Assembly (NCBI GenBank): GCA_037447655.1
Contig: JBBHKE010001106.1
Location: 124,642 to 188,641, forward strand
Reading direction: 5' to 3'
DNA length: 64,000 nt
Origin: Zygnema cylindricum
Lineage: Eukaryota > Streptophyta > Zygnematophyceae > Zygnematales > Zygnemataceae
The notes beneath the pieces were generated by a model. That model did no database searches, was not told the origin of the DNA, and worked only from the letters and a program-made list of their open reading frames with translations. Shown in pieces: positions 56,855 through 59,959 of the stretch; within the stretch, counting starts at the first letter, position 1; each line of letters opens with the position of its first letter. The position numbers and the translations under genes were made by a program.

Positions 56855-59800
56855 ATGTCCGGAAGCCCTTCTTACTCCCTTCTCCCTCCCCCACCTCCGC
56901 CCAAACCTCGTAAACCTTCGAGGCGTTTGGAATGTCCTGGGTGTCACAACCTTTTTGCCGCTGGGGCCGGCATTTCCCTTCATACACGGAGTTGTCGACG
57001 TTGTATAACCTTGGGTGGTCCTTTGTCTATCACCTCTCCTCAATCACTGTCGACCACACTCCCGTCCGGCCCTACAGATGAGGATTGGAATTTCGTACGT
57101 GAGTTAGATGTTTTGGGAGCTTATGATTTGGGAGCCCCCCGCACGCGATTGTACACCCGTATTCCTGTGGCCATCAGGACAATAGTACAAGATGCCCTCC
57201 ACCTCCCGTTGTCCCACATTTCTTCAAACCCGGCGGACATTGCTCCTTGGCACCTACTTCTTATGTTCTCTCTCTGGGTGCTAGTCCTTCCAAGTCGTGG
57301 AGGGGGCAGTGGGGCTAGAGAAACAATGGCGCGTTGTCGCCGATTCCTTCGGGGTGACTGGAAGTCCCTCCACGCCGAGCATGAGGATCGGGTATCGAGC
57401 ACCTCTTTCATACCACGTCGGCCACCTAAGCCATCGGATGTCCCGGCCTCTTATCGTCGAGCAATTCACTTAGGCCGAGTTGGTGAGCTTTCTCGAGCGG
57501 TTCGGGTCCTGCAGCCATTCACCCCTGCCCCCGGATCTTCTTCCACTATTGAGGTCCTTCGAGCTCTCCACCCCCCTGCCCCTTCCCCTTTACCCCTTTC
57601 CATCCACACCTTTGAGCCTTCTGAGAGTTTTACATTGGATCGGGAGGTTTTCATTAAGGCTCTTAGCTCTTCTCCTCATCATTCAGCGGGGGGCCCCTCG
57701 GGCACAGTATATGAGTTGTTTCGCGATGTTTTGCCCCCTGAATCGGGTGCCCGGGGGTTCGATGTGTTTTTTCGAGTATGTTCCCTTATAGCTAGTGGGG
57801 ATGTTCCCCCTCGGATTTGTGATCTTCTCACGGCGTCCCGCCTTGTGGCAACAGCCAAACCTAATGGTGGGATCCGCCCTATTGCCGTGGGAGAGGTTTT
57901 ATATAGATTGGTGGCTCGTGCGATCTGTCTCCAGCTCCAACCGGCTTTCCATGATTATTTCTCTCCTCATCAGTTTGGAGTGGCCACGAGAGGGGGTTGT
58001 GAGGCCGTGGTCCATGGGATTCGTGCTTTGTTGGATGTACATCCGGATTGGTTGGTCCTTCAAGTCGATGTTTCCAATGCATTTAATACGGTGGATCGGA
58101 ACGTGATTTTTTCAGAGCTTATGGCGGCTCCATCTCCGATTGTCCAATTGTTCCCCTTTGTGAGGGCTTTCTATTCTTTGACAAGCAGCCTTTCCTTCTC
58201 GGCTGATGGTGATATTATTCCTCTCTCCTCTGCTACTGGCACTCGCCAAGGTGACCCTCTCGGCGGACCTTTGTTCGCCCTTGCCCATTACCGAGCCCTT
58301 CGTGCCTCCGCAGCCGCCTTCCCTTCTTGCCTTTTTCCTTCGGTCGCAGATGATACGCACATTATTGGGCCGAGAGAACAAGTCGTGTTAGCATATGATT
58401 TTTTCAGGGAACATTTAGCCGAACTCAACCTTTCAGTTCAACCGTCGAAGTGTGTTATTTGGTCTCCTCAGGATATTCCACTTTCGTTTACTACCCCTCC
58501 TGGTTTTCAAACCCTTTCTCCCTCCGATGGCATTCGTGTGCTTGGTTGCCCCCTTGGTTCAGATACTTTCGTGACCCAATTCCTTCATGATGCTTTACAG
58601 ACAGATCTAGCCCAAGTGGACGACCTTCCTCACCTTCCCGATCCCCAAGTTGCTTTTGCTATGTTAACCAGGTGTTTTCCCCACCGCCCTTCTTACCTCA
58701 CTCGTACTTCCCCTCCCACCTCGACATTTCTCTCCTCTCTCTCGGCTTTTGACGATCGCCTCATGGACGTCCTCCACTCTATGTTAGGTCGCGGGGCATT
58801 TGATCGCGCGTCTGGGCCATCAGCCCGCATTCAGGCATCCCTCCCTGTCTCTACTGGGGGGTTGGGTCTATTATCGACAGCTCGTGTTGCTCCAGCTGCC
58901 CATTTGGGAAGTTGGTGTCTTATTGCCTCTACTCCCCGTTTCTTGGCTGGGGACACCCCCGTTCTAGCTACTGTTATCCCCCGGGTTTCAGACAGTGTGT
59001 TCGCCTTCCAGCGATCTCTATTGGACGCGTCACGTTCTCTTCCTCCCCATTCCCTTGTGGATGTGCCAATTTTCTCGACCCTTGTTACAAAATCTGTCGA
59101 GCGTGTCCAGGAATCGATTTCCGACCGGGTTGTCGCCACCATTAAATCCGAGCTTCTCACGGCGCTTCCCTCCGATTCTTCTCGGGCTCGTCTTCTCTCT
59201 TGTGGTGGACCTCGTTCTGAGTCTTGGCTTTTTGCCACACCTATTTTGTCCACTCTCCGATTCTCACCAGCTCAGTTCACCACCGCCCTTCGGTTTCGCC
59301 TCGGCCTCCCCCATCCTCCTTTACTTGGCTCTCTTGTTTGTGCATGTGGTCGTGTCTTGGGGCCCGATGGTGTCCATTTGCTTCGTTGCTCCCATGGGGG
59401 AGATTTGATCCAGGCGCACGACACTATTCGAGACACCGTTGCCACTATTGCTTCGGAAGGGGGCTTTTCTGTGCGTCGAGAGGTTTCTCATATTATTCCC
59501 TCGCGTCGGATCGATGTTGTTTTGCTTGATGGTGCCCGTCGCATTTTCGGTGATATTGTTCTGGCGAACCCTACTTCAGCTACAGTTGTTGGTCAGGCGG
59601 CTCGACATCTTGGGGTGGCAGCTCGTGATGCTGCTAAGGCGAAGGAGCGTGATTATGCCCACCGGGACCCTATGGATGACTTTATCCCGATGGCGGTCGA
59701 GATCTTTGGATGTTTGGGTGTTGCACTGGACGAGTTTCTCCGTACTTGTGCTCGACGTGCTTTCGAGCGTCGAGGACCTGGGAGCCCTCCTCCTTCGGTC

Positions 59801-59959
59801 CTTACTTCTTTTTACCGTCAACGCTTATCTGTGGCTCTACAACGAGTGCAGGCTTCTATTCTCCTTCGATCGACTGTTGCGGTTATGGATCGTCGCCGTG
59901 CTCCGGAACTCCCTCAACGTGCTCCCCCGGGCTGGGGGGACTTACGGGGCTGTTTTTAG
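56855..59959 (+). CDS. RLE-type non-LTR retrotransposon protein, intact 1034 residues
   Basis: A single uninterrupted ORF for target-primed reverse transcription. An N-terminal zinc finger C27-x2-C30-x12-H43-x3-C47 follows a proline-rich leader. The RT domain has motif A QVDVSNAFN (D405), motif B GTRQGDP (462-468) and motif C VADD (D499, D500); ADD replaces the more usual YADD/FADD. C-terminally, a CCHC knuckle C829-x-C831-x9-H841-x3-C845 (LLRCSHGG) precedes D887-x12-D900 (RRIDVV..GD), the pattern of the PD-(D/E)XK endonuclease of R2/NeSL-like elements, with ID in place of PD. No AP endonuclease, RNase H or second ORF is seen. MSGSPS is the first Met before the finger. The intact frame suggests recent activity. 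It could belong to an R2-, HERO- or Utopia-like clade; this cannot be settled here. Confidence 0.88.
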   Translation: MSGSPSYSLLPPPPPPKPRKPSRRLECPGCHNLFAAGAGISLHTRSCRRCITLGGPLSITSPQSLSTTLPSGPTDEDWNFVRELDVLGAYDLGAPRTRLYTRIPVAIRTIVQDALHLPLSHISSNPADIAPWHLLLMFSLWVLVLPSRGGGSGARETMARCRRFLRGDWKSLHAEHEDRVSSTSFIPRRPPKPSDVPASYRRAIHLGRVGELSRAVRVLQPFTPAPGSSSTIEVLRALHPPAPSPLPLSIHTFEPSESFTLDREVFIKALSSSPHHSAGGPSGTVYELFRDVLPPESGARGFDVFFRVCSLIASGDVPPRICDLLTASRLVATAKPNGGIRPIAVGEVLYRLVARAICLQLQPAFHDYFSPHQFGVATRGGCEAVVHGIRALLDVHPDWLVLQVDVSNAFNTVDRNVIFSELMAAPSPIVQLFPFVRAFYSLTSSLSFSADGDIIPLSSATGTRQGDPLGGPLFALAHYRALRASAAAFPSCLFPSVADDTHIIGPREQVVLAYDFFREHLAELNLSVQPSKCVIWSPQDIPLSFTTPPGFQTLSPSDGIRVLGCPLGSDTFVTQFLHDALQTDLAQVDDLPHLPDPQVAFAMLTRCFPHRPSYLTRTSPPTSTFLSSLSAFDDRLMDVLHSMLGRGAFDRASGPSARIQASLPVSTGGLGLLSTARVAPAAHLGSWCLIASTPRFLAGDTPVLATVIPRVSDSVFAFQRSLLDASRSLPPHSLVDVPIFSTLVTKSVERVQESISDRVVATIKSELLTALPSDSSRARLLSCGGPRSESWLFATPILSTLRFSPAQFTTALRFRLGLPHPPLLGSLVCACGRVLGPDGVHLLRCSHGGDLIQAHDTIRDTVATIASEGGFSVRREVSHIIPSRRIDVVLLDGARRIFGDIVLANPTSATVVGQAARHLGVAARDAAKAKERDYAHRDPMDDFIPMAVEIFGCLGVALDEFLRTCARRAFERRGPGSPPPSVLTSFYRQRLSVALQRVQASILLRSTVAVMDRRRAPELPQRAPPGWGDLRGCF

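Follow-up and report, generated by a model that had tools for sequence, protein, structure and literature searches.

A likely recently mobile R2-group non-LTR retrotransposon with loose target choice in a streptophyte

The 64,000-nucleotide stretch of DNA analysed here (the window) carries one long open reading frame (ORF) of 1034 codons, and the question is what kind of element encodes it, whether that element still moves and into which sites. An earlier note on this DNA had described the frame as intact, with reverse transcriptase (RT) motifs, a C-terminal CCHC and a D-x12-D pair, and all of these were present, the RT motif residues being D405 and A498-D499-D500 and the acidic pair D887 and D900. 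Our analysis indicated that the frame very probably belongs to an open copy of a multi-copy family of non-long terminal repeat (non-LTR) retrotransposons of the R2 group, the type with a restriction-like endonuclease (RLE), whose likely way of moving is target-primed reverse transcription at a wide range of T-rich sites. The ORF is more than a chance frame because the best homologues of the protein covered 84-100% of its length and because the dN/dS between it and the open frames of two other copies (L021, L026) was 0.12, at a dS of 1.1. With a threshold of E 1, Pfam returned RVT_1 alone from the 1034-aa protein and no AP endonuclease domain of the L1/APE type. In profile comparison the protein matched R2 at E 3.7e-40 and LINE-1 at 2.1e-14, and R2 ranked first in the Foldseek search; VIA on the whole protein did not separate R2 from LINE-1. 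A group II intron maturase was also considered and rejected, since the NCBIfam match scored 41.8 bits, well short of the cut-off of 300.

The type assignment of the earlier note, a single-ORF element with RLE, agreed with the profile result and with the C-terminal model, where the PD-(D/E)XK fold that it had suggested looking for was predicted. In the model the core consists of a helix, three strands, a helix and a strand, and the modelled domain matched the R2 nuclease by both Foldseek and VIA; the domain is thus predicted to fold as an R2-type RLE of the PD-(D/E)XK type. Its residues are C829-x1-C831-x9-H841-x3-C845, E876, D887-x12-D900 and K930. In the profile alignment each of the four CCHC residues was kept in 51-52 of the 57 non-R2 rows (5-6 rows gapped), and E876, D900 and K930 in 49-51 (5-6 gapped), with 49 D and 2 E in the D900 column. 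For D887, 35 of the 57 rows agree on the column, and 50 do so when a shift of one column is allowed. The claim of an N-terminal CCHC finger stood in part: the finger residues were there (C27-x2-C30-x12-H43-x3-C47), but the spacing is of the C2H2 type with a final Cys and is not that of a retroviral zinc knuckle.

The element was placed as RLE-type (R2-group) on the profile comparison, in which it appears nearer to R2 than to LINE-1, and on the predicted nuclease. The RT tree held 56 sequences, a selection from the listed matches; it used the RT columns of the profile alignment with multiple matches per row merged, its root was set on R2, and four long or odd sequences (P0326, P0330, P0314, P0333) were removed. 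R2 provided the only references, and CRE, NeSL, R4 and HERO were not among the rows. Under this root the three R2 sequences formed one side (100/100) and the window element lay among the remaining 53 rows, in a clade with two open kin and nine unnamed proteins (97/95). The sister of this clade was a group of seven unnamed Closterium RT proteins (P0008, P0009, P0012, P0016, P0019, P0025, P0242; 99/96), which share 31-38% identity with the window protein but form a separate seven-row clade of their own (100/100). A quick 60-row tree gave 94 and 93 for the element's clade and its grouping with the Closterium proteins. The R2 proteins of Taeniopygia, Platysternon and Bombyx resemble it in combining RT, CCHC and RLE in one protein, in the same order and with the same predicted fold; however, identity in the Foldseek alignments was 14-16% and the branch between them in the RT tree was long. 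The wider RT family takes in dinoflagellate, sponge, moth, diplonemid and Tanacetum proteins, and no relatives were confirmed in phage, viral or prokaryote collections. Two of its members (P0285, P0337) come from the angiosperm Tanacetum coccineum; P0285 has an RLE-like C-terminus by eye, so flowering plants may contain RLE-type relatives that have escaped annotation. Extra Pfam domains were seen in P0295, P0314 and P0242, presumably Ulp1 protease (P0295, P0314), RNase H and SET (P0314) and exostosin (P0242).

The family is dispersed. The protein search against the own genome covered 352.8 Mb, and its count is a lower bound: at least 46 matches at 44 places. In 21 of the 46, counting the window copy, amino-acid identity was 90% or higher. 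Ten of the 46 were free of stops, among them three near full-length ones (the window copy, C1150 and C1862), and the other 36 carried stops. We examined 20 copies with their flanks and the short 3' ends of 20 more, 40 loci in all. Against its closest copies (L012, L017 and L025) the window ORF had a dS of 0.023, 0.044 and 0.044 and a dN/dS of 0.61, 0.57 and 0.32, as expected of recent copies decaying under little constraint; these ratios were taken on the longest open frames, some of them incomplete, and no clock was applied. Because selection was purifying between subfamilies and the closest copies have diverged little, the element has likely been mobile recently, and the possible recent activity raised in the earlier note gains from the same low dS and from the many matches of high identity.

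The ends of the element were read from the 20 aligned copies. Near full-length copies began their homology inside 5' monomers, and homology ended at an identical 3' base in copies with unlike flanks. TRF was run on 11 of the 20 copies, and nine, the window copy included, had an array of 67-93 bp monomers in 1.8-8.8 copies; in the remaining two (L016, L023) no array was detected, though L016 contains both monomer words, TACGCGACA and TACCTCCGGATCT, each of which occurred in nine of the 20 copies. In five copies compared, the start points fell at different phases within the array. At the other end, the hairpin GATGGTTTACCATC was exact in 34 of the 40 loci and present with no more than two substitutions in 37; in the 3' stretch examined it was not seen in L028, L042 and L050. 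It was kept between subfamilies with dS above 1. Two kinds of tail come after it, type A at 25 of the 37 loci and type B at 12, and there is no poly-A. The overall fold of the 3' untranslated region (UTR) was no better than that of shuffles (z 0.30). Directly past the stop codon (59978-60000) lies a GGGTTGGGGTTGGGGTTGGGG run, found in the window copy alone among 37 checked, and a G-quadruplex proposed for this GGGTT run was dropped, being in 1 of 37 copies only.

With regard to insertion, the earlier note had expected a sequence-specific target, and the alignment of copies did not support it. All 37 readable 3' flanks were unlike each other (first 30 bases: mean identity 0.33, maximum 0.57 over 666 pairs), those of the closest copies too, and so were the nine 5' flanks examined. 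We reject a strict fixed target on these 3' flanks, and a single 28S rRNA gene site, as used by the R2 clade, is not what was found. The Rfam scan of the window gave no match. The 3' flanks do have a composition in common. Their mean GC was 0.23 in the first 20 bases versus 0.38 at bases 61-150 (Wilcoxon p 2e-5), T at bases 3-12 was 0.53 versus 0.32 (p 1e-4), A was lower (0.26 versus 0.30, p 0.04), and 15 of the 37 had a unit of 1-4 bases repeated at least six times within the first 40 bases. These values point to a likely preference for T-rich sites, and the T-rich bias may instead reflect untemplated T addition. No target site duplication emerged in the nine of 20 copies whose 5' end is clear: the longest string shared between the two sides measured 4-8 bases, a length that shuffled sequences also reached, and blastn of the same flanks gave no junction duplication. 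Distant direct repeats surround L017 and L018, and L012 is enclosed by an imperfect inverted repeat whose arms measure about 545 bp and which is found again in part next to L014; these resemble insertion into older repeats.

It could be argued that the element is specific for one repeated target and that the copies examined are off-target insertions or relics. Four of the five RLE clades are mostly target-specific (PMC4640811), and TTTTTTTA was common to 7 of the 37 flanks, compared with at most 5 in 200 shuffles; but the difference between flanks extends to the closest copies and to both ends, and we regard this explanation as improbable. Even less credible, and in our judgement hardly to be entertained, is a domesticated host RT gene that no longer moves. 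An open frame under purifying selection would suit such a gene, but not 46 matches with stops in 36, 5' truncation and common 3' ends in unrelated flanks.

A more serious competitor is a site-flexible HERO-type element, which would make the window family a member of the HERO clade and not a separate lineage. HERO includes many non-specific elements (PMC4640811, PMC3636483), and both the RLE type and the loose insertion fit; the grouping with Closterium proteins is silent on this point, as the tree was made without HERO sequences. We consider this possible but rather doubtful. BLAG-type non-site-specific R2-like elements are similar again in RLE type and in having no fixed target (PMC4640811, PMC3636483, PMC7650587); the 5' monomers and the T-rich bias described above are observations on the window family. 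The Utopia/NeSL clade shares the RLE type and N-terminal fingers (PMC4640811). Utopia is reported from Amoebozoa, SAR and Opisthokonta and is tied to U2 genes (PMC4640811), whereas no shared target was seen in the window family. Members of the clade often have a U2 or spliced-leader target. We found no such element described from a streptophyte alga in the literature as available to us, most subscription papers and Repbase reports lying outside the search.

What the sequence shows for the R2-group retrotransposon reading is a single ORF with RT, CCHC and nuclease residues, and a family of more than 40 scattered copies that share their 3' end, with its nearly invariant hairpin and no poly-A, but vary in the monomer array at the 5' end and include 5'-truncated members. 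In the proposed mechanism the 5' monomers would serve as promoter units, and the hairpin at the 3' end of the RNA would be where the encoded protein attaches. Its nuclease would then nick an A-tract of the bottom strand, which corresponds to the T-run downstream of the element on the top strand, and the RT would start at the 3' end of the RNA, often stopping early and leaving 5'-truncated copies. The positions of all parts are collected in Table 1.

Table 1. Parts of the retrotransposon, with positions in the window
Feature	Position	Strand	Basis
Whole element	56031-60216	+	approximate span; 5' end within monomer array; 3' end at ...TTTATCCTGC; copy alignment
5' array of 2.7 tandem 92-bp monomers, which likely act as promoters	56031-56275	+	TRF
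5' UTR with A-rich and C-rich tracts	56276-56854	+	aligned in near full-length copies
Single ORF, 1034 aa	56855-59959	+	longest ORF listed in the window
N-terminal C2HC finger, residues 27-47	56933-56995	+	sequence; low predicted local distance difference test (pLDDT) score, low-confidence region of the structure model
RT domain, residues 335-566	57857-58552	+	Pfam RVT_1 4.9e-18
C-terminal CCHC, residues 829-845	59339-59389	+	residue conservation across 57 non-R2 rows
Predicted RLE core, residues 850-949 (E876, D887, D900, K930)	59402-59701	+	model, Foldseek, VIA
3' UTR	59960-60216	+	copy alignment
3'-terminal hairpin GATGG-TTTA-CCATC, likely RNA signal for reverse transcription	60182-60195	+	conserved across loci
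3' junction and downstream flank	60217-60228	+	flank unlike in all 37 copies; low GC

The plant-like genome recognised in the earlier note was supported by matches to light-harvesting complex (LHC) and GRAS proteins. The genome gave 88 LHC matches, and one LHCII protein aligned from end to end, at 77% identity, with a protein labelled Mesen1, which we take to be Mesotaenium; its identity to a Closterium protein was 67%. The identities of land plants and chlorophytes were in the same range, and LHCII alone indicates the green lineage only. GRAS matches numbered 27 on twelve contigs, and LHCII and GRAS together argue for a streptophyte host (PMC7289718). Since no land-plant LHCII was close and the named kin of the retrotransposon are from Closterium, a zygnematophyte alga is the likely host. 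On two contigs (C519, C2590) the LHC matches are packed into dense arrays and run in either direction. Elsewhere in the window, pieces of Ty1/copia elements (RVT_2, integrase, gag-pre-integrase) lie on the minus strand at 27520-29238, 13987-15087, 33123-34163, 29446-30528 and 15839-16915.

Most of what is known of RLE-type long interspersed nuclear elements (LINEs) comes from animals and protists. The window holds a real, likely recently mobile R2-group LINE with a loose target in a streptophyte. More tentatively, and with somewhat less than an even chance in our estimate, zygnematophyte algae might possess an R2-group clade of their own, of the rank of HERO or NeSL and still mobile, which would have traded a fixed target for T-tracts, with promoter monomers at the 5' end and an almost invariant RNA hairpin at the 3' end to drive it. 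Such a clade would be a natural R2-like writer of the plant lineage that is not site-specific. An apparently young, multi-copy and loosely targeted RLE LINE in an alga that is likely a close relative of the land plants would show this lineage to have persisted on the plant side, and its compact protein and short RNA tail would offer material for comparing loose with strict targeting by R2-like nucleases.
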